Positions 963 through 37,717 of a stretch of 64,000 bases of DNA are shown here, piece after piece. The notes beneath the pieces were generated by a model. It had not been told where the DNA came from and did no database searches. It was given only the letters and a program-made list of their open reading frames with translations. Made by a program: the position numbers and the translations under genes. Origin of the DNA: Chloracidobacterium sp. GTDB taxonomy: Bacteria > Acidobacteriota > Blastocatellia > Chloracidobacteriales > Chloracidobacteriaceae. How positions within the stretch are numbered: the first letter of the stretch is position 1; the number at the start of each line of letters is the position of its first letter. Location of the stretch: contig JANWUV010000008.1 in assembly GCA_025057975.1 (NCBI GenBank), positions 62,001 to 126,000 on the forward strand, written 5' to 3'.

Positions 963-2777
963 TCAGGTTGTTTCCGGCGGCGTGTATGTTGCCGGGCGAA
1001 ACGTCGTTAGGCGAAAAACATTGACGAACGTGTGCGGCGGGCGGCGCTCAAGATGCACGTAGGCGCGCGCCACCGGCGCCCAAGCGTCGTCCAGTATCAT
1101 ACCGACCGGCTGATATTCGGCAATCACTAATCCGTTCGACGCCAGCGAAATCCGCCCTGAGGGATGAAAAAAAGTGACGAAATCCCCATGATTTTTGGCG
1201 GCGTAAGCCGCCTCGCCCAGGTCTTGCGCCGCCACTTCGCGGTCGCCGCGAAAGGTCAGCAACCGCATGGGTTGCTGACCACCGTCGCCGAATAGCGCCA
1301 CCTGAAAATCACCTTCCCCGGAAGCGCGCAGCAAGGTCAACGCCGGCGCAGGAAGCGCGATGCGATACTTAATGCGGCCGCGCGCGTCTAGCCACGTCAC
1401 CGCTGGATGAATCGGTCCCGACGACACCAACACGTCGTCCTCACTCAGAACGACAAGCTGTGGCGACTGAAGGTAGTTGTACAACTCGATTTCCCATTGT
1501 CGTCGCCCCTCCAGTGAGTACCCGGCGACCAGCGCCTTGTTGGCTAGAATCAGCAGGGTTTCGGACGGCGTGACCGCTAGGCTCGTTACCGGAAAGAGGA
1601 GTTGGAAAAGGCGGCGCGGCGCGTGCTCGGTCGCTGTGAGGGCGTAGAGATGGCGATTCGTGGCAAAGTAGCTGGTCCTCGCCTGCAGTGTCGGTGCGGC
1701 CGCCGCCGTAATCCGCTCCGGGAGGAAATAGGGTACGAACCGTCGTCGGTCTAGCTCAAGAAAGCCGGTTGTCCGGTCGTCCACAATGTACACCACCGCG
1801 CGCCGACTTGGGTTGAGCGTAAACAGTTGTTGGCTGCCAGCCAGTTCATAGCTAAACAGTGGTTCGAGTACCGAGATGTGTTCTGAGACGTGTTCCTGCG
1901 CTGGTGGGGCCGGCGCTTGCGTTGTATCGTCGGCGGGCAGCGGTGCGTCGCCGCTATAGCCGACAGCGAAGACGCTCACGCCGGCCGGCGCGGACAGTGA
2001 CGCAAGTTGAGCCTCCAAGAGGTAGTGGAGCGCCTGCGCCGATCTGGGTCGCTCAGCAGGTGATTTCTGCAGGAGTTTAGCGACGATAGGCCGGACGGCT
2101 TCCGGTATCGGGTTCAAATCGGGCGGCTGCTTAGCATGCTTGACAAAGAGTTCCTCTGGTAAGCCCTGAAAGGGTCGGTCGCCGGTAAGCAGTTCATAGA
2201 AGATGACGCCGAGTGAGTAGAGGTCGCTGGCGTACGTTGCGAAGTCATAAAACTGCTCCGGTGCCATGTAAGCCGGGGAACCGTTCGGCTTTTGTCGGTC
2301 AAACACATTCGCTAAATGATTGGCGATACCGAGGTCGGCGATTTTGTAGGTGGTTCTGCCAGCGGCGTCGGGAAAGACCAGAATGTTTTCCGGCTTCAAA
2401 TCACGGTGTAGCACCTGACGGTCGTGCGCGTAGGCTAGACCGGCGGCCACATCCCGCATCACCTCCGCAGCCTCCCTCATCGGCAGCGCGCCGCGCCGGT
2501 TGAGAACGTCCCGCAGGCTTCCACCAGCGGCGTATTCCAGCACCAACTTGTTGCGCGCGCCTTCCTGCCCGTAAATCACGTCGAAGCACCGAACAATGTT
2601 GGAGTGCTGAAGCGCCGTCAGCGAGGAAAGCTCGCGAAAAAAGAAATGGGCGGCGCGGCCGCCGCCCAGGAATTCCTTGACGGCGTATAGGTCGCCGGTG
2701 GTTGTGTCCCGCGCCAGATAGACGACGGCGTGCGCGCCGCTGCCGAGGACTTTGATGTTTTCGTAGAAGGCCGTCAT
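963..2777 (-). CDS. Ser/Thr protein kinase with C-terminal propeller-like domain
   Basis: Eukaryotic-type Ser/Thr kinase of 604 residues. The kinase domain (about 1-260) has the Gly-rich loop GSGAHAVV (12-19), Lys34 in AVKEF, catalytic HRD 124-126 (HRDLKPEN), the metal loop as DLG 148-150 instead of DFG, and YMAPE. Residues about 310-600 have no membrane segment and show repeated beta-strand patterns suggesting a propeller-like sensor. An in-frame TTG at 2867 would add 30 residues with no kinase homology; ATG 2777 puts the start directly before the kinase fold, although neither start has a clear ribosome-binding site. It is the distal signalling gene of the cluster, 73 bp after the V4R gene. 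The Synechocystis slr0144-slr0152 operon also ends in a Ser/Thr kinase gene. Confidence 0.9.
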   Translation of the reverse strand: MTAFYENIKVLGSGAHAVVYLARDTTTGDLYAVKEFLGGGRAAHFFFRELSSLTALQHSNIVRCFDVIYGQEGARNKLVLEYAAGGSLRDVLNRRGALPMREAAEVMRDVAAGLAYAHDRQVLHRDLKPENILVFPDAAGRTTYKIADLGIANHLANVFDRQKPNGSPAYMAPEQFYDFATYASDLYSLGVIFYELLTGDRPFQGLPEELFVKHAKQPPDLNPIPEAVRPIVAKLLQKSPAERPRSAQALHYLLEAQLASLSAPAGVSVFAVGYSGDAPLPADDTTQAPAPPAQEHVSEHISVLEPLFSYELAGSQQLFTLNPSRRAVVYIVDDRTTGFLELDRRRFVPYFLPERITAAAAPTLQARTSYFATNRHLYALTATEHAPRRLFQLLFPVTSLAVTPSETLLILANKALVAGYSLEGRRQWEIELYNYLQSPQLVVLSEDDVLVSSGPIHPAVTWLDARGRIKYRIALPAPALTLLRASGEGDFQVALFGDGGQQPMRLLTFRGDREVAAQDLGEAAYAAKNHGDFVTFFHPSGRISLASNGLVIAEYQPVGMILDDAWAPVARAYVHLERRPPHTFVNVFRLTTFRPATYTPPETT

Positions 2778-2850
2778 GGGGGGGGATATGACCTTTAGCG
2801 TTCGTCGCCTACCGGCACGCAGATAGTCGTCAAGAAATCTGGGGGAGTTT

Positions 2851-3495
2851 CTAGACTGTCGCCACAACCTGCTCGTGCGTCATGCCGGCTTTGATCTTCT
2901 CCTGAATGCCGCGCAGCCGCCCGGCGCCGGTCACAACAAAACGGCTGGCTTCTGCGCCGCGCGAGATGCACGCAGTTTGGACGCAATCAAGGTCGTGGCC
3001 GCTAATGTGGCTCAGCATGCCAGCGAGAATGCCCGCAATCATCGGATCGGAAAAATCCTCCTCGTCACGAATGACTTCGGCGAAAATGGAATCTTCCAGC
3101 GCCGCTGTGACGATGCCCGTCTCCCGAGCCTGCGACACGTCAATCGTCATCAGTCCCCAGCCGTGATAGACGAAATATTCACGGAAGAAGCGTAGAAACA
3201 TCGAGATCGGCATTTCGCGGAGCTGAAGGTTGCCTACCGCCTGCGCTTCGCGTTCCAGCCGGCGCATGATGCGTTCTCCCCAGATTTTTCCGCAGGTTTT
3301 AAAAATGACCGGCCACGCAGGGCCGGCTTCGTCCTTGACGGCGGTGTACACACCCGCCAGGAAGTCGGTTGACAGGAGGCATAAGCGCGTTTTGGCTGGG
3401 TTCCACAACACGCCTTCGCGCAGGTCAAAGCCCAACCGTGATTCGTCAAAAAAACTCTCCAAACCCTCAAGTAAATCCACCGTAGCACGCATCAT
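2851..3495 (-). CDS. V4R-domain protein (4-vinyl-reductase / BchJ-like), first copy
   Basis: A 214-residue V4R protein. This small-molecule-binding fold was named from BchJ, once assigned to 4-vinyl reduction of chlorophyllide, and is now often viewed as a tetrapyrrole or ligand carrier. The C-terminal part has the typical Cys-containing strand (HDLDCVQTACISRG followed by SRFVV). The region around EYFVYHGWG matches the hydrophobic strand seen in V4R domains. It starts ATGATG at 3495 and overlaps the upstream stop by four bases (ATGA), so the phycobiliprotein-like protein and this one are probably made together. The second V4R gene at 4739-5401 is a diverged paralogue. Pigment binding is inferred from family and context, not from a visible catalytic site. 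Confidence 0.85.
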   Translation of the reverse strand: MMRATVDLLEGLESFFDESRLGFDLREGVLWNPAKTRLCLLSTDFLAGVYTAVKDEAGPAWPVIFKTCGKIWGERIMRRLEREAQAVGNLQLREMPISMFLRFFREYFVYHGWGLMTIDVSQARETGIVTAALEDSIFAEVIRDEEDFSDPMIAGILAGMLSHISGHDLDCVQTACISRGAEASRFVVTGAGRLRGIQEKIKAGMTHEQVVATV

Positions 3496-4091
3496 GCCCC
3501 GTAGTCCTCCGACAAGACATTCATGGCGAGGTCAAGATAAGGCGACAGCAACCGAAAGCTTGTCGGTTGCAGGTCCTGCTGACACTCACGTTTGACGACA
3601 TAGTACATGTGGTAAATGGACTTAACCTTCCCTTTGAAGGCTTTGAGTTTCGTCGCCAGCGCCGGGTCAATCTTGGCGAAGGCTTCCCGCATCGCCGCGG
3701 TCTGTCCAACTTCCGGGAAGTCAAACGCCTGCAAAATGGTTTTCATCCAGATGAGGAGCTTATTCTCAAACCAGCGCGGGTCTTCAATCAGCATCGAAAG
3801 CGTGGCGTATGACAGTACATAACGCGCGTCGCGGACGCACTTCGCCGTAGCATGCTCGTGATGCTGTTCGTAGGGATACATCGTGTAGATTTCCTTTACG
3901 CTCCGACTAACGATACCGGTTTCCTTAGCACGGATATCCTTCGCCGCCGCGATATGCGCGGAAAGATTGGGGTAGTAACTCTCCAGCTTGGCGAACTCGG
4001 CGTCGGTGAAGTATTTGCCCTCCGCCTGCCGAAACATGTTCGCCAAATCGGGGTGGCGGTGTGGTGGAACTACGGTGGCTGGTGCTGTCAT
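3492..4091 (-). CDS. Phycobiliprotein-like globin-fold protein with CxRD bilin-attachment motif
   Basis: A 199-residue, mostly helical protein similar to phycocyanin/allophycocyanin subunits. The key match is Cys85 in AKCVRDARYVLSYATLSM: phycobiliproteins attach bilin at the equivalent Cys84 within C-[LIVA]-R-D and continue with an aromatic-rich helix. The length also fits (about 160-180 in phycobiliproteins). Later helices (LKAFKGKVKSIYHMYYVVK) are compatible with the C-terminal globin helices. ATG 4091 is preceded by GGAGG about 13 bases upstream, and the stop overlaps the V4R start. Anoxygenic phototrophs lack phycobilisomes, so it is probably a sensor, carrier or assembly factor. The Pap operon of Synechocystis is reported to encode proteins with predicted bilin-binding domains. 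Bilin loading is unproven. Confidence 0.8.
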   Translation of the reverse strand: MTAPATVVPPHRHPDLANMFRQAEGKYFTDAEFAKLESYYPNLSAHIAAAKDIRAKETGIVSRSVKEIYTMYPYEQHHEHATAKCVRDARYVLSYATLSMLIEDPRWFENKLLIWMKTILQAFDFPEVGQTAAMREAFAKIDPALATKLKAFKGKVKSIYHMYYVVKRECQQDLQPTSFRLLSPYLDLAMNVLSEDYGA

Positions 4092-4194
4092 GGATGGAAA
4101 TCAACCTCCGTGAAGCCTTGGGCAGAGGACAGCGCGTAGGGAAACACAAGGAAACCCTACGCCGCAGCCGCCGCTCAGGGCAATGAGAGCAGGC

Positions 4195-4704
4195 TTATTT
4201 CTTGACTTGTGAAGCGCGGATGGCGCTTTCCGTCGCTACCCGCAAGAACTCGCTCGCGCCGGCGCTTGACCACGGCGACTGCGTCGAACGACCGCCGCCG
4301 TTGGTGTCCCAAGGGATGCTCTGGAAGAACGTAAAGGCGGCGATTTCGTCGGTTGGGGCTACCGCCGACGCAACAACGGCGACGGGTGCCGGCGCAGGAG
4401 AGGCATCGGCCGGCGGTGGGGCGACTTCCACCGGCAAAGGCAACAGCCCTTCCGTCGCGCGGCTGGTTGCCGCCGTTAGGCGTGTTGAAGACGGACGCGG
4501 CGCCGACCGGACAGGAGCGCCACCGCGTTGCGCCCAAGGCACAAGCTCCGTGAAAAACACCTCGGCGGTATCCTCCAAACTCAGCGCCGCGCGAGCACGC
4601 TGGATAGCCAAGTTGAGCTTTTCACGACAGCGTGCAATCCGCGCCAGCAACGCCTCTTGTTCATCAAGTAAATCTTGGGGGAGCGAAAGACTAAGACTCG
4701 TCAT
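4195..4704 (-). CDS. Unrecognised protein with two FF..PW motifs
   Basis: No family recognised (169 residues). Residues 10-45 form a charged amphipathic helix or coiled coil. This is followed by FFTELVPW (50-57), a Pro/Ala-rich linker (about 60-120) and a related FFQSIPW (126-132). The two aromatic-PW motifs at the ends of a flexible linker look like short docking motifs for a partner protein. No signal peptide or membrane segment is seen. It lies between the two pigment-type genes with gaps of 34 and 103 bp on the same strand, which supports its being a real gene of the cluster. Confidence 0.7.
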   Translation of the reverse strand: MTSLSLSLPQDLLDEQEALLARIARCREKLNLAIQRARAALSLEDTAEVFFTELVPWAQRGGAPVRSAPRPSSTRLTAATSRATEGLLPLPVEVAPPPADASPAPAPVAVVASAVAPTDEIAAFTFFQSIPWDTNGGGRSTQSPWSSAGASEFLRVATESAIRASQVKK

Positions 4705-4738
4705 GTTCTGTACCTTTTGAAGTTAGGCGGATACATTG

Positions 4739-5401
4739 TCAGTCGATGAGCTTCTCCATGATTTCTTGCGCCGACGCGCCTTCGCGCCGCCAGAACTCAG
4801 CCGCATTGACCTTTTTCTGAGAACCGACAATAAACTTACAGCAGTCATTGCCCATTGAGTAGCACTGCACCTCAATCCCTCCGCGCTCCTCACGGTCAAA
4901 GACGCTGAAGACGCCGGCAAACATGCCGGCATACATATAGCAAACTGGCTTACCGACTTGCTCCATTGCCTTTGCCACGGCGGAGTTCTTGATGGTGATA
5001 AAAACCATGCCTTGCTTTTCAAAGCTGAAGTCAATTGCCCATGCACCCCAGCCTTCAGCTGTCAGCGGCCACCACCAAGATTCGAGGACGAACTTGCGGT
5101 TCATTTGCCAGATATCGAGTTTACCGCCGCCGAACTCGTGGCGCATTTTTTCAGCAAAGCGCTTCATGTCACTGACGCCCCACTCGTAGCCGCATTTGTA
5201 CATTACAAGGTTAGAGGCGTCACCAATTTCTTCATCCAGTCCGGCATGGAGACTGGTGATAAAGTCTTCTGACGCATAGACGCCGCGCTGACCGTCGCGG
5301 AGACGAATCGTGCGGGTGCGCGGATCACGCGAAAGAAAGTCTTCTGGGACAAAGTAATTGTGGTAATTTTTGATGCCGCCGTCAGCGACGTTGATGGCCA
5401 T
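4739..5401 (-). CDS. V4R-domain protein, second copy
   Basis: A 220-residue V4R protein. The C-terminal Cys-rich strand pattern (REERGGIEVQCYSMGNDCC followed by KFIVG) is the V4R signature, and an aromatic stretch (ESWWWPLTAEGWGAW) precedes it. ATG 5401 is preferred over GTG 5410 because AAGGAG lies eight bases before the ATG. It differs clearly from the copy at 2851-3495; paired V4R genes are also a feature of the Synechocystis slr0144-slr0152 operon. Probable role: binding a tetrapyrrole or related ligand in the cytosol. A 141-bp gap with an A7T5 tract (5468-5479) separates it from the upstream ferredoxin gene and could hold an internal promoter. Confidence 0.87.
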   Translation of the reverse strand: MAINVADGGIKNYHNYFVPEDFLSRDPRTRTIRLRDGQRGVYASEDFITSLHAGLDEEIGDASNLVMYKCGYEWGVSDMKRFAEKMRHEFGGGKLDIWQMNRKFVLESWWWPLTAEGWGAWAIDFSFEKQGMVFITIKNSAVAKAMEQVGKPVCYMYAGMFAGVFSVFDREERGGIEVQCYSMGNDCCKFIVGSQKKVNAAEFWRREGASAQEIMEKLID

Positions 5402-5542
5402 ATATGTCACTCCTTGATGGAAATGGCTATTGACGCCGTGTGTGCTATACGCAAGTCCGCTTGGGAGAAAAAAATTTTTAGGGACATCAGTGAACGCCGG
5501 CGCTAAGGCAATGCTTAAGGCCGAACTTGAGCTTAGGAAGCC

Positions 5543-6016
5543 TTACGTAGCCGACGCCGCCAGTTTAGTCATATCAAAGTCTTCGCCTTCGAGTTCTAGG
5601 ATTCTGGACTTTGTAATGATTTTCCCGCGATCAATCAAGACGCGACCATCGCGCGGGTGAAGGATCGGCACTTCAGCGCGCTTGCCGATGAGCGCCCGCA
5701 AGTCGTCAATGCTTTGCACATACATCCCTTCAGGCAACTCAACGACGACGCCGTCGCCGATGATGCGCGCCTGACAGGACAACCGTGAACGGGCAGTCGC
5801 GCCGGTGATCGTCCCAAGTGTTCGAATTTCGCGTTCCGTACGCGGGGTTAGGGATTGTTCGCCCTTGATGACGAAAACATGGCAGGTTGCACATAGTCCC
5901 ATACCGCCGCACGCCATCGCCACCTCACACTGTGAAGCTAACAGCGTGTCGAGCACCTTGGTGTCCGTCTTAACCGAAATTGTCCTATTGATTGGCTGTA
6001 ACGTGATGCTTTTCAT
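5543..6016 (-). CDS. [2Fe-2S] ferredoxin with C-terminal extension
   Basis: A 157-residue 2Fe-2S ferredoxin. Cluster ligands are Cys36, Cys42, Cys45 and Cys81 (CGGMGLCATC and RLSC). The C-x5-C-x2-C spacing is that of adrenodoxin/bacterial ferredoxins rather than the C-x4-C-x2-C of plant-type photosynthetic ferredoxin. Residues about 98-157 are an extra segment not found in simple ferredoxins. It starts at ATG 6016, five bases after the FNR-like gene, so the two are certainly cotranscribed. Likely role: one-electron carrier to or from a partner in this cluster; the partner is unknown. Confidence 0.92.
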   Translation of the reverse strand: MKSITLQPINRTISVKTDTKVLDTLLASQCEVAMACGGMGLCATCHVFVIKGEQSLTPRTEREIRTLGTITGATARSRLSCQARIIGDGVVVELPEGMYVQSIDDLRALIGKRAEVPILHPRDGRVLIDRGKIITKSRILELEGEDFDMTKLAASAT

Positions 6017-6021
6017 AGCAA

Positions 6022-6717
6022 CTAACTCCAGCGCTCGACAGTAATGTTTGACTTTGGGATTCCGGCTGACTGGAAGGTTTGCTGATAAAACTTTATCTCG
6101 GGATACTCACCTGCAGCATAAAATTTTGTATTTGGGTTTTCGAGATACAAGCTTCTCAGCATAACCGGTGTCACACGCCCCAGCCCACCAACCCATCCAA
6201 CAGGACGTGTTGGCTGGTTCAGGATTAGTATGCGCGTAAGTGGGCTGTTTTTTTCAAAATGCTTGAATTCATCATCGTAGAGGATTTGGCTTGAGTCAGT
6301 AAGTTCATGAAAGAGCGTAAGGCGGCGTTCTGGCTGACGAGTGAGAATGTAGTAGAAAAAGCTGCGTGCAGCTGGGATACAGTAATCCATGCCAATGAAG
6401 CAAACCGGATCTAAACTGTCAGTTTGTAACTTGAGCTGTCCCATTGGCTCAGTGACATGGATAATGTCACCAACTTTTACTTGGTCGTAAAATTGCGTTC
6501 CGAAATTGCCAATTCGTTTGACTGTTACCTGAAAATACTTTTGGTCATGGGGAGACGAGCTGAAAGTTAGGCAAGCTTGTCGTTCAGCATTGAGATGGAA
6601 AACGGCAAACTGTCCCGGTGTAAAGCTGAAAGGGTATTCTCCGAAGTCAAAAATAAACGAGCGTACATCTGTGGTTTCTTGAATAATGCGGCAAACAGTA
6701 TATGGTCGCGTGCTCAT
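6022..6717 (-). CDS. Ferredoxin-NADP reductase-like protein with degenerate cofactor motifs
   Basis: A 231-residue protein with the overall FNR pattern: an N-terminal beta-barrel with FTPGQF, and a C-terminal domain ending in a YAAGEYP...YQQTFQSAG region. The usual flavin motif RxYSxxS appears as CLTFSSS (49-55), lacking Arg and Tyr. The pyridine-nucleotide motif GGxGxxP appears as GMDYCIP (109-115). It may therefore have lost flavin or NAD(P)H binding, or bind them differently. It is the first gene of the pigment-type cluster, 45 bp after the coiled-coil gene. Its DNA is visibly AT-richer than its surroundings (6121-6180 is 26/60 G+C), which may point to transfer. Confidence 0.75.
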   Translation of the reverse strand: MSTRPYTVCRIIQETTDVRSFIFDFGEYPFSFTPGQFAVFHLNAERQACLTFSSSPHDQKYFQVTVKRIGNFGTQFYDQVKVGDIIHVTEPMGQLKLQTDSLDPVCFIGMDYCIPAARSFFYYILTRQPERRLTLFHELTDSSQILYDDEFKHFEKNSPLTRILILNQPTRPVGWVGGLGRVTPVMLRSLYLENPNTKFYAAGEYPEIKFYQQTFQSAGIPKSNITVERWS

Positions 6718-7657: not shown

Positions 7658-8773
7658 TCAGGTAGCGCCGGGTGAGGTCGCAACCGGCGTCTCGGTTTCC
7701 TGCAACAAACCGGCGGCCCGCAAACCCCCAACGAGGAAAAGAAACACCAAGGCTTCGTTCGGAACCGCCGCCAACAACTCGCCGAGCGTTCGGCGGCCGT
7801 CAAAAAGGCGCAGTAACCCAACCGTTTGCTGGGGGAGGGCGTTGGCCTCCAACCGGCGGCGCAAATCCGGCGCAAGGACGTAAGTTCTAGTGTCTTCGAC
7901 TTTGGTGTGCAGCAAACGGTCAGCCAACGTCAGCAGCAACTCGGCCGTCTGAAGCGCCGACGCCGGCGTGTGGTGGGCGGCGGACGGATGGACGGCTGCG
8001 CTCAGTTCAGCGAGTGGCTCTTGGTCTTCCGCCGCTGTCGCAGTCGGCGTCGGAGTATCCTCTAAGGTCGCCGACTTGCTTGTCCGACGCAGGGCTTCCG
8101 CCGCTTCGTCGCGTCGCCGAAAAGCTTCCATCAGCAAACCCATGAGCCGGTCGTGCAGTGTACACGGCGGCGGAACAGGCGGTGGCGGGGTCATCTGAAG
8201 CTTGACGCCTTCCCACAGGAGGATGTCATAGGCGGCCGGCTCGCCGGACCGGTCGCCGGTTTCGGCGTGAACAAGATCACCATTGCTGAAGTAAAGGTAG
8301 CCGACCCGTCCTCCAGCAGCGATGCGCAGGACGCAGCTTTTGCGTTCCATCTCTAGAAGCTGGAGGAATGAAGCAAGGGTCAGGCCCTGAATTACGCCCT
8401 GCTGACGCGCGTTCAACTCGTTGCAGATCACGGTGTAGAGCGTGCTCACGCTGAACGGTTTGCGGATGACCGGGAGCGCGCCGATCTGGTGCAGACGGCT
8501 TTCGACATCGCTGACCGCCATGGCAGTCAGAATGACGATGGGGAGGTTGACCTGCTCGCTCAATAGGTGAGCGATGAGTTCAAAGCCGTCCATGACGGGC
8601 ATCTGGAGGTCAGTGACAACGATGTCCGCCGGCTGATGCGCCAGAATGTCGAGCGCCTCCTGTCCGTGTCCGGCCGTCACGACGGAAAAACCGTCCTGAT
8701 GCTGGCTCAGCCACTTGGACACAAGCCCGGCAATGGCGTCGTCATCTTCAACCAAGAGCACGCGCTTCTTCAT
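7658..8773 (-). CDS. Response regulator with DUF4388 (PatA-like) domain
   Basis: A 371-residue regulator. Residues 1-120 form a receiver domain (acidic LVEDDD, phospho-acceptor Asp in VVTDLQMP, conserved Lys in IRKPFS). Residues about 125-235 form a DUF4388 domain (LASFLQLLEMERKSCVLRI, GYLYFSNGDLVHAETG). A variable Ala/Thr/Pro linker and a C-terminal alpha-helical region with LRLFDGRRTLGELL follow. DUF4388 proteins are frequent in myxobacteria and acidobacteria, with outputs through protein contacts rather than DNA binding. ATG 8773 is preceded by GGAG. No cognate kinase is adjacent. Confidence 0.88.
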   Translation of the reverse strand: MKKRVLLVEDDDAIAGLVSKWLSQHQDGFSVVTAGHGQEALDILAHQPADIVVTDLQMPVMDGFELIAHLLSEQVNLPIVILTAMAVSDVESRLHQIGALPVIRKPFSVSTLYTVICNELNARQQGVIQGLTLASFLQLLEMERKSCVLRIAAGGRVGYLYFSNGDLVHAETGDRSGEPAAYDILLWEGVKLQMTPPPPVPPPCTLHDRLMGLLMEAFRRRDEAAEALRRTSKSATLEDTPTPTATAAEDQEPLAELSAAVHPSAAHHTPASALQTAELLLTLADRLLHTKVEDTRTYVLAPDLRRRLEANALPQQTVGLLRLFDGRRTLGELLAAVPNEALVFLFLVGGLRAAGLLQETETPVATSPGAT

Positions 8774-35941: not shown

Positions 35942-37717
35942 CTAGCCGACCGTCGTCGGCAAGTAACGATGCGCCTCGGCTGACGCGACGGCGGACGCCA
36001 AGCCTCCCGCCGGTGACGCAATAACCGCCGTACGAACAGCCGCCATCAGATTTGCCATCAGATTTGGACTTAGTTCCCGACCAATGACGACCAGCGAGCT
36101 TTCCGGCGCGGCCGCGCAAGGATTGAGGTTGAACGACCGCCCGGCATATTCCAAGCGTAACCAGCCGCCGGCCGTCCTAAAGACACCTTTGGCGCGGGCG
36201 ACCTCGCCGAAGCGTCCGGCGGCGATGTCCTCAAACACTTGTTGGAGAGCGGCGGCGTCAAAGGTCTCGGCGAAGGTTTCCGCGCGCTGCTCAAACGCAA
36301 TGCGTGGGGCGAATGTGTCTCCCAGACAGGCGTCTTCCTGCGTGTCGCTCAGGTCGCGCAGGCTAATCCGCCCAAAGCTTGTGTAAAGCATGCGCGCCGT
36401 CGGATTGCAGCGGGCGATCCGGTCGGTAATGCGTTCCAGTTCAGCCTGCGATAGGCTGTCGCACTTGTTGACGATGACCGTCGCGGCGGCCTCAACGTAG
36501 GCTTCAATGGCGCTTTGTACGGCGCGGTCGGCCGTCAGCCATTGCTTGCCGTCCACCACCGCGACGACGCGGATAGGGCCGAGCAGTTCACGACAACCGG
36601 GCTGATGCAGCGTGCCCAGCAAGTCGCCGAGGGCCGCTGCGCCGGACGGCTCAATCAAAATCCGCTCCGGGGCGTAGTCACGGATGAGTTGGGCCAGCGT
36701 CGCTGCGACGTTGCGCGAGAGCGTGCAGCATAGACACCCGCCGGCCATTTCAACCACCGGCGTCGCGTCAGCGTCGCTTTTGGCTTCGCGTAACCGTGCG
36801 CCGTCCAAGCCGACATCAGCGAATTCGTTGACGAGGACGATGGTTTTAGCGTCAAGCTGTGGGATGAGATTCCGCAGCAGCGTGGTTTTGCCGGCGCCGA
36901 GAAAGCCGCCGATGACATCCACCGTCGGCTTGACTTCTGGCGTACGCCGCGAAAGCAGGCCCCATGCCCAGACGCCGACCGGCTGCGGCAGAATCAACCA
37001 CCAGTGTTCGAGAATCGCCAGCGCCATCAGCGTACACGCCAAGCCGTTGGCGGCGACGGTGAAGGCGTCGGTTGCTTGGACGGCGCGGTAAAAGAGCCAG
37101 TGTGCGACGGCCGTGGAAATGGTGACGGAGAAGGGAAAGAACCAGTTGATGGGGCGTTTGGAGAAAAACTGCGTCATGCGACGCAGATGCTCCGGCAAGT
37201 ACTCCTCGTTGAGGTTGCGGACGCCAAAAAACACGTTGAGCTTGGCGGATTGGTGCATCCACCAATGGATGGTAAACGTCCACAGCGCGACCTGATTTGG
37301 TCCTGGCGTCACCGCCCAGACCAGTGCAAAGCCGGCGAAGATGGAGAGTTCGTGAAAGAGGTTGGCCTTGACGCCGTGGACGAAGTGCCGCCATCCGCCG
37401 CAGTTGGGAGCGCAGGGCGGCGTGTCTAAGCCGACGACATAGCCCGTGTAGTAGCTTGTCTCAAACCAGCCCCAGGCGACAATCCCCAGCAAAAATCCCG
37501 CCGCCGCGCCCAGCGGCGTCGTGATGTAGCTAACGCTGGGCATCAACGCCGTCGCCGCCAGCGCCGCCAAGGAAGACAGCACGAACACTGGCCGCCGCCA
37601 ACTCCGGCGACCACAGGCGAAGATAATCCCCACGGTCGCCGCCCACCAGACGGCGACGGCGAACAACGGCAGCCCAAGCCAGAGCAACCACGGGCTTTGT
37701 AGATTCCAATCGGACAT
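35942..37717 (-). CDS. puhE: Fusion: PuhE-family photosynthetic complex assembly domain + CobW/COG0523 GTPase
   Basis: A 591-residue fusion. Residues 1-257 are a polytopic membrane domain of the PuhE (DUF3623) family, which in purple bacteria affects photosynthetic complex assembly. Matches include AWGWFETSYYTGYVVG, FHELSIFAGFALVWAV, SAKLNVFFGVRNLNEEYLP, INWFFPFSVT and LEHWWLILP. Residues 265-591 are a COG0523 (CobW/ZNG1-type) GTPase: Walker A GFLGAGKTT (271-279), VNEFADVG switch, CxCC metal motif GGCLCC (Cys328, 330, 331), NKCD (417-420) and a CobW C-terminal domain. Such GTPases deliver metals, often zinc. The fusion ties metal delivery to assembly of a bacteriochlorophyll protein; Chloracidobacterium reaction centres contain Zn-BChl a'. 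That link is inference. ATG 37717, divergent from mnmG. Confidence 0.93.
   Translation of the reverse strand: MSDWNLQSPWLLWLGLPLFAVAVWWAATVGIIFACGRRSWRRPVFVLSSLAALAATALMPSVSYITTPLGAAAGFLLGIVAWGWFETSYYTGYVVGLDTPPCAPNCGGWRHFVHGVKANLFHELSIFAGFALVWAVTPGPNQVALWTFTIHWWMHQSAKLNVFFGVRNLNEEYLPEHLRRMTQFFSKRPINWFFPFSVTISTAVAHWLFYRAVQATDAFTVAANGLACTLMALAILEHWWLILPQPVGVWAWGLLSRRTPEVKPTVDVIGGFLGAGKTTLLRNLIPQLDAKTIVLVNEFADVGLDGARLREAKSDADATPVVEMAGGCLCCTLSRNVAATLAQLIRDYAPERILIEPSGAAALGDLLGTLHQPGCRELLGPIRVVAVVDGKQWLTADRAVQSAIEAYVEAAATVIVNKCDSLSQAELERITDRIARCNPTARMLYTSFGRISLRDLSDTQEDACLGDTFAPRIAFEQRAETFAETFDAAALQQVFEDIAAGRFGEVARAKGVFRTAGGWLRLEYAGRSFNLNPCAAAPESSLVVIGRELSPNLMANLMAAVRTAVIASPAGGLASAVASAEAHRYLPTTVG

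Follow-up and report, generated by a model that had tools for sequence, protein, structure and literature searches.

A seven-gene operon at positions 963 to 6717 of a 64,000-nucleotide stretch of Chloracidobacterium sp. DNA (assembly GCA_025057975.1, contig JANWUV010000008.1, positions 62,001 to 126,000; hereafter the window) is homologous to the Pap operon (slr0144-slr0152) of Synechocystis and is not specific to reaction centres. The genes belong to an old set, common to cyanobacteria and apparently non-photosynthetic bacteria, whose probable role is to sense redox state and the breakdown products of pigments by way of a linked protein kinase. Our leading, though tentative, reading is that they could encode a signalling complex of the pre-PcyA/BBAG type that responds to tetrapyrroles and redox state, with the kinase acting on the ferredoxin. 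The genes, and two protein motifs discussed below, are as follows (ORF, open reading frame).

6022-6717, minus strand: FNR-like flavoprotein (NAD_binding_1, 4.8e-5), canonical NAD(P)H glycine motif absent
5543-6016, minus strand: [2Fe-2S] ferredoxin, adrenodoxin-like, its C-terminal extension conserved; corresponds to cyanobacterial Fed5 (slr0148) (Fer2, 1.7e-9)
4739-5401 (ORF to 5410), minus strand: V4R-A (slr0144 type), probable small-molecule sensor domain with a predicted zinc site (V4R, 4.9e-16)
4195-4704, minus strand: FF/W multi-motif protein (slr0145-position type), probably a flexible scaffold; no convincing family match
4534-4557, minus strand: first FF/W motif, FFTELVPW, position derived from the ORF translation
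4309-4329, minus strand: second FF/W motif, FFQSIPW
3492-4091, minus strand: phycobiliprotein-like globin (BBAG), CVRD at residues 85-88 (PF00502, 5.1e-21)
2851-3495, minus strand: V4R-B (slr0147 type) (V4R, 4.1e-7, slightly below the Pfam cut-off)
963-2777 (ORF to 2867), minus strand: Ser/Thr kinase of the SpkG-type cluster clade, with a C-terminal all-beta, propeller-like domain in the model (8.2e-51)

ORFs and profile matches agree with the seven same-strand genes and domains that an earlier note on this DNA had described; the several ATGA overlaps or five-base gaps that it mentioned reduce to one overlap (globin/V4R-B) and one gap (FNR-like protein/ferredoxin). The V4R-A start is most likely the ATG at 5401, with AAGGAG just upstream and homologues beginning there, and that of the kinase is most likely the ATG at 2777 rather than the TTG at 2867. 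Gene order is kept in three other genomes of the same genus (L015-L017) and also in L018 and L019, and the L020 locus stops at a contig end after the FF/W gene. Across the three same-genus genomes, identity to the window is 94-96% for V4R-A, 90-92% for the ferredoxin, 88-91% for V4R-B and 86-89% for the globin; the FNR-like protein (75-79%), the kinase (69-70%) and the FF/W protein (61-64%) are less conserved. A chance assembly of unrelated genes was ruled out, as the same content recurs in five non-cyanobacterial groups and in cyanobacteria and the kinases form one clade.

A scan of named genomes with a V4R-A alignment yielded 23 loci, and two annotated plasmids of Acaryochloris marina MBIC10699 served as cyanobacterial reference clusters. 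The tree of 51 V4R proteins, drawn like the kinase trees from the midpoint, resolves clade A (22 rows, support 99/99), clade B (23 rows, 95/93) and a clade of a third protein, V4R3 (6 rows, 100/100), whose joining to clade A could reflect a long-branch artefact. The first V4R protein of the window lies in clade A and the second in clade B, each with its cyanobacterial counterpart, and both clades span Acidobacteriota, Verrucomicrobiota, Planctomycetota, Pseudomonadota and Cyanobacteriota. Best matches in Acaryochloris pair as expected, the first with the first cyanobacterial V4R protein (42-43% identity) and the second with the second (29-30%). Identity of the ferredoxin to the Acaryochloris cluster-type ferredoxins is 46-50% over 142-155 of its 157 residues, C-terminal extension included. 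Gene order, compared with cyanobacteria other than Synechocystis, is shared in part: the block V4R-A, FF/W, globin, V4R-B is common to Chloracidobacterium and most cyanobacterial loci, but the position of the ferredoxin gene differs. The homology to the Pap operon proposed in the earlier note is thus upheld by two phylum-spanning V4R clades, the ferredoxin, a partly shared order and the kinase clade.

The kinase follows V4R-B in all 17 non-cyanobacterial loci with sequence extending beyond V4R-B, although in L021 it is split into two overlapping ORFs. Three of the ten cyanobacterial loci carry a kinase of the same clade, in L031 and L035 after a TPR-type gene, the SpkG position, and in L040 some 1.3 kb upstream of V4R-A. 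Altogether there are 20 cluster kinases, drawn from the five non-cyanobacterial groups and from three cyanobacteria. They group together as a single clade (98/91) in a tree that also contains 24 paralogues of the host genome and six other neighbours; in this tree four of the 29 kinase matches of the host were left out, no ORF carrying the catalytic motif having been selected for them. The same clade is recovered (97/86) in a 76-row tree comprising the 24 host paralogues, 27 cyanobacterial and Gemmataceae paralogues and five upstream Planctomycete kinases. The 27 rows were left by length and motif filters from 30 loci out of 65 matches, two of the 30 being cluster kinases themselves, and a long-branch row, L024 18875, was excluded. 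Closest to the clade from outside is a host kinase (L094; 84/91). SpkG itself is absent from both trees, and orthology was judged via the three cyanobacterial cluster kinases. Because the cyanobacterial and non-cyanobacterial cluster kinases form one clade apart from 51 paralogues, the kinase looks ancestral. Five Planctomycete clusters (L025-L028, L033) have a second kinase upstream of the ferredoxin; it belongs to a different kinase clade and lies beside a bilin reductase gene in four of the five.

A protein with mostly two or more motifs of the type F-F/L-x2-3-hydrophobic-P/N-W follows V4R-A in 26 of 28 loci (the window, L013-L038 and L040), many of them close relatives. L034 and L037 lack it, L029 has divergent copies only and that of L020 is cut by the contig end. 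A regular expression composed after most of the sequences had been inspected finds 47 copies in 23 FF/W proteins, 22 of which have one or more; 2000 shuffles gave 0.46 copies on average and never more than 4. A narrower pattern, limited to the window and L013 but written when the other rows had already been inspected, finds 13 copies, spread over 10 of the 14 other proteins, where 0.022 would be expected; in 114,950 residues (ORF segments of at least 200 amino acids from 17 loci) its four occurrences are all in FF/W genes. The exact DNA form of the motif has a single match in the host genome, the second motif listed above, inside the FF/W gene. Across four genomes it has eight, four in FF/W genes and four elsewhere (G123, G165), the latter in stop-to-stop frames of 93 and 37 amino acids with no methionine ahead of the motif. 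On the Acaryochloris plasmid pREC3, the FF/W gene (L014:8627-9000) is missing from the incomplete PLSDB gene table. Titles and abstracts searched for slr0145/slr0146, Chloracidobacterium and V4R-kinase literature held no report of these kinase and FF/W findings.

Rockwell, Martin and Lagarias (2023) described a cluster of Fe-S protein, V4R-A, V4R-B, globin and bilin reductase (FDBR) in pre-PcyA bacteria, mainly non-photosynthetic, and named Chloracidobacterium as a carrier (PMC10151467). The same paper derives the cyanobacterial cluster slr0144-slr0149 from the pre-PcyA cluster and sets slr0150-slr0152 aside, conservation evidence being wanting; a cyanobacterial cluster with the same gene kinds, and a kinase in some genomes, has also been listed (PMC4284462). 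The window and its genome contain clade A and clade B V4R proteins, a cluster-type Fe-S protein, a putatively bilin-binding globin with the CxRD motif, which is reported from some BBAG-1/3 proteins (PMC10151467), and a pre-1-type FDBR. The type was assigned from the catalytic columns: Glu76, His88 and Asp105 of PcyA are lacking, with Thr in the His88 column of the eight Chloracidobacterium-group FDBRs (Asn in the seven other distinct non-cyanobacterial FDBRs aligned) and Glu in the Asp105 column of the group. The gene lies on another contig:

L007:6602-8065 (contig C14, about 92601-94064): FDBR and the third V4R gene, V4R3

The host FDBR scores 30.5 bits, slightly under the 31-bit cut-off; it is above the cut-off in seven relatives, whose proteins are 59-81% identical to it. 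FDBR is found in all eight BchL-positive genomes of the Chloracidobacterium group (G000, G096, G123, G165, G396-G399), four of which are at least 99% complete, and in 22 of the 25 genomes searched; V4R3 adjoins it in all eight. The genome of L021, labelled Actinomycetota, clusters with Chloracidobacterium in the trees and is counted in the group. V4R3 was rejected as BchJ, having no NCBIfam match. Heme oxygenase, typical of the published cluster though not universal in it, gave no PF01126 match anywhere in the eight genomes, other heme-degrading families not having been searched, although 14 of the 25 genomes overall have such a match. The paper likewise reports it as absent from the Chloracidobacterium cluster (PMC10151467). 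An ancestral-looking kinase, the FF/W protein and a genome-wide absence of PF01126 with the FDBR-V4R3 pair kept go beyond the published main text.

The prevalence of FDBR is also what would be expected if the operon were a bilin-making and electron-delivery unit, in which electrons pass from the FNR-like protein through the ferredoxin to FDBR, the V4R proteins and globin hold reactive intermediates, and the kinase only tunes. In a Blastocatellia metagenome-assembled genome (MAG; G400), the FNR-like homologue adjoins FDBR, which suggests that the FNR-like protein and ferredoxin feed FDBR, and in three Planctomycetes (G403, G404, G410) adjacent FDBR and heme oxygenase genes lie inside the cluster, with a kinase on one side and the ferredoxin on the other. 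We nevertheless consider this alternative rather unlikely: a PF01126 heme oxygenase to supply biliverdin is lacking, FDBR is on a separate contig in the host genome, and cyanobacterial clusters are reported to retain V4R, ferredoxin and globin without FDBR or heme oxygenase (PMC10151467).

The lack of a PF01126 match in all eight genomes while FDBR is kept, the constant V4R3 neighbour and the Thr at the His88 column, where the seven others have Asn, would fit a further and distinctly improbable scheme. Here the module of phototrophic acidobacteria would have been rewired, its ligands changing from bilins made from heme to tetrapyrroles of (bacterio)chlorophyll origin, with FDBR and V4R3 working on a bacteriochlorophyll catabolite or precursor; an ancient bilin-sensing kinase module that had lost its heme oxygenase would then read open-chain (bacterio)chlorophyll products. 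If true, a phycobiliprotein-like globin and a ferredoxin kinase would let a type I reaction-centre bacterium keep watch over the turnover of its own pigments. Several observations speak against such rewiring. G400, with no BchL above cut-off, also has no PF01126 match (its completeness is not given, and a single absence is weak). V4R3 does not match the BchJ model, the absence of heme oxygenase is that of PF01126, with other heme-opening enzymes not searched, and Thr at the His88 column is found in pre-3 enzymes too, and one of these acts on biliverdin (PMC10151467).

The host is a type I reaction-centre phototroph of the Chloracidobacterium group. Its genome (3.52 Mb, 99.9% complete) encodes FmoA, a PscA-like reaction-centre protein adjoining FmoA (PF00223, 3.5e-7, 29.3 bits against a cut-off of 23.3) and BchL above cut-off, as the anoxygenic phototroph suspected in the earlier note should, and the three closest named loci are labelled Chloracidobacterium (two) and Blastocatellia (one). 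The group is not known to have photosystem II. The earlier note had envisaged a general reaction-centre assembly module, a proposal that widespread occurrence of the cluster in non-phototrophs would undermine, and this is largely what was found. Of the non-cyanobacterial genomes with the cluster, the nine that do not belong to the Chloracidobacterium group (G400-G406, G409, G410; Planctomycetes, Opitutales, a Blastocatellia MAG, a proteobacterium and a bradymonad; completeness not given) all lack BchL above cut-off. Two of the nine carry the loci that fall closest to the Chloracidobacterium-group cluster in the V4R and kinase trees, L022 (Blastocatellia) and L023 (Opitutales). The published cluster is likewise reported mainly from non-photosynthetic bacteria (PMC10151467). 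BchL absence alone is no proof of non-phototrophy, because three of the seven cyanobacterial genomes also lack it above cut-off.

Restriction to phototrophs, as expected of a reaction-centre-specific system, is therefore not seen. The globin was found in only four of 396 sampled genomes of the phylum, all from one phototrophic genus, which would favour a role of the proteins in constructing or repairing the type I reaction centre; that restriction does not hold, because the sample evidently missed the genome of L022. The homologous cyanobacterial operon has been linked to assembly and repair of photosystems II and I (PMC10151467), and because of this link a role in reaction-centre care may still be played in phototrophs. 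Given the orthologous clusters in BchL-less genomes, we regard assembly or repair as an improbable account of the operon. The globin is the sole PF00502 match in the host genome, and NCBIfam phycobiliprotein models score far below their cut-offs, which rules out a light-harvesting phycobiliprotein.

A sensing and signalling complex is favoured over an assembly chaperone because of the sensor-like fold of V4R-A, its invariant Cys and Glu residues and the C-terminal beta domain of the kinase. C157, E180, C183 and C191 of V4R-A (numbered on the 223-residue ORF from 5410) are invariant in 20 of 20 sequences, and the three Cys have the spacing of the DmpR zinc ligands; the zinc-site Glu of DmpR is printed 21 residues past the first Cys (PMC7264223), compared with 23 in V4R-A. 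The predicted structure (mean pLDDT 77.9) resembles the phenol-sensing domains of MopR, PoxR and DmpR as well as TRAPP Bet3 (MopR Z 14.8, root-mean-square deviation 3.5 over 181 residues). The likeness to MopR rests on the predicted fold, because a profile search against the PDB gave only MJ1460, at E 0.068. In the globin, which is 29-31% identical to its Acaryochloris counterparts over about 105 residues, C85, R87 and D88 are invariant in five of five aligned sequences, with CxRD intact. The kinase model has its C-terminal all-beta, propeller-like domain in predictions from five sequences (pTM 0.59); among the 50 fold matches listed all are kinases, with no named counterpart for this domain. 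Column Thr17 of the ferredoxin is Thr in 20 of 20 aligned ferredoxins. A phosphosite has been reported near there; those reported for Slr0148 are T18 and T72.

A signalling mechanism can be proposed by analogy with Synechocystis, where Slr0144-Slr0149 interact (PMC9880817), Fd5 is slr0148, the cluster ferredoxin (PMC4284462), and its phosphorylation is not seen when SpkG is absent (PMC11863333). Cys85 of the globin would hold a bilin or a similar open-chain tetrapyrrole, the two V4R proteins as a pair would bind a second, small hydrophobic ligand, V4R-A around its putative zinc site, and the FF/W protein would link the partners via its repeated motifs. The FNR-like flavoprotein would pass electrons to the ferredoxin, which may serve the bilin reductase on contig C14, report redox state, or both, and the kinase would read the state of the complex and phosphorylate the ferredoxin. 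Bilins have a precedent for acting in a phototroph without phycobiliproteins or phytochromes, namely Chlamydomonas (PMC9393634).

Several points weigh against this mechanism. Ligand, interaction and phosphorylation are predictions in this genus, and Rockwell et al. describe BBAG function as not yet known (PMC10151467). The usual NAD(P)H motif was not found in the FNR-like protein, GGxGxxP being replaced by GxDYxx(P/T)AAR in six of six aligned sequences, the window included. No PF01126 heme oxygenase that could supply a bilin was found, nor any phytochrome PHY domain (the latter in 10 genomes). TRAPP Bet3, at Z 14.0, is within one Z unit of MopR, so the V4R-A fold alone does not single out a sensor. 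The kinase was not seen in seven of the ten cyanobacterial loci, of which only L037 and L038 end soon after the TPR-type gene. In Synechocystis, deletion of fed5 affected neither growth nor stress response in the conditions used (PMC4284462), and SpkG activity is described as not directly verified (PMC11863333).

Two upstream neighbours are kept in the Chloracidobacterium-group loci L015-L020:

6763-7557, minus strand: coiled-coil protein
7658-8773, minus strand: response regulator with DUF4388

A circularly permuted ATP-grasp protein is encoded near the operon (L008:1877-3235), and a look-alike, judged by eye, near the FDBR-V4R3 pair (L007:13810-15189). At 35942-37717 (minus strand) of the window, a PuhE homologue (DUF3623; TIGR03055, 202.8 bits, above cut-off) and a CobW GTPase domain form one fused protein. 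The host has a type I centre, although PuhE is known from purple bacteria with type II centres. A V4R-A fragment 72% identical to that of the window lies at a contig end in a MAG labelled Eremiobacterota (L039), possibly through a binning error; this MAG gave no heme oxygenase match, no FDBR match and no BchL above cut-off.

With these comparisons, the Pap proteins cease to be a curiosity of photosystem II in cyanobacteria and become one branch of a phylum-spanning module. The kinase and FF/W protein add two conserved parts to the core set published in the main text of PMC10151467 and offer direct tests of the BBAG role, and the retention of globin and FDBR without a PF01126 heme oxygenase in eight genomes makes chromophore identity a sharp, testable question.

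Compared with the MopR, PoxR and DmpR sensors, V4R-A has a similar fold and three Cys at zinc-ligand spacing, but it lacks the AAA+ and DNA-binding domains and shares only about 17% identity. With the Pap operon, whose Synechocystis order is taken from papers, the window shares the order V4R-A, FF/W, globin, V4R-B, a ferredoxin of the Fed5 type and a kinase that falls in the same clade; it differs in having the ferredoxin before V4R-A, one globin instead of two and an FNR-like gene, and in lacking fed4 and the TPR gene. In gene content there is also a close likeness to the pre-1 type of the pre-PcyA/BBAG cluster (PMC10151467), with its Fe-S ferredoxin, V4R-A and V4R-B, CxRD globin and, elsewhere in the genome, pre-1-type FDBR, whereas here FDBR sits on another contig with a third V4R gene, an FNR-like gene is added, and the kinase and FF/W protein stand outside the core set named in that paper's main text.

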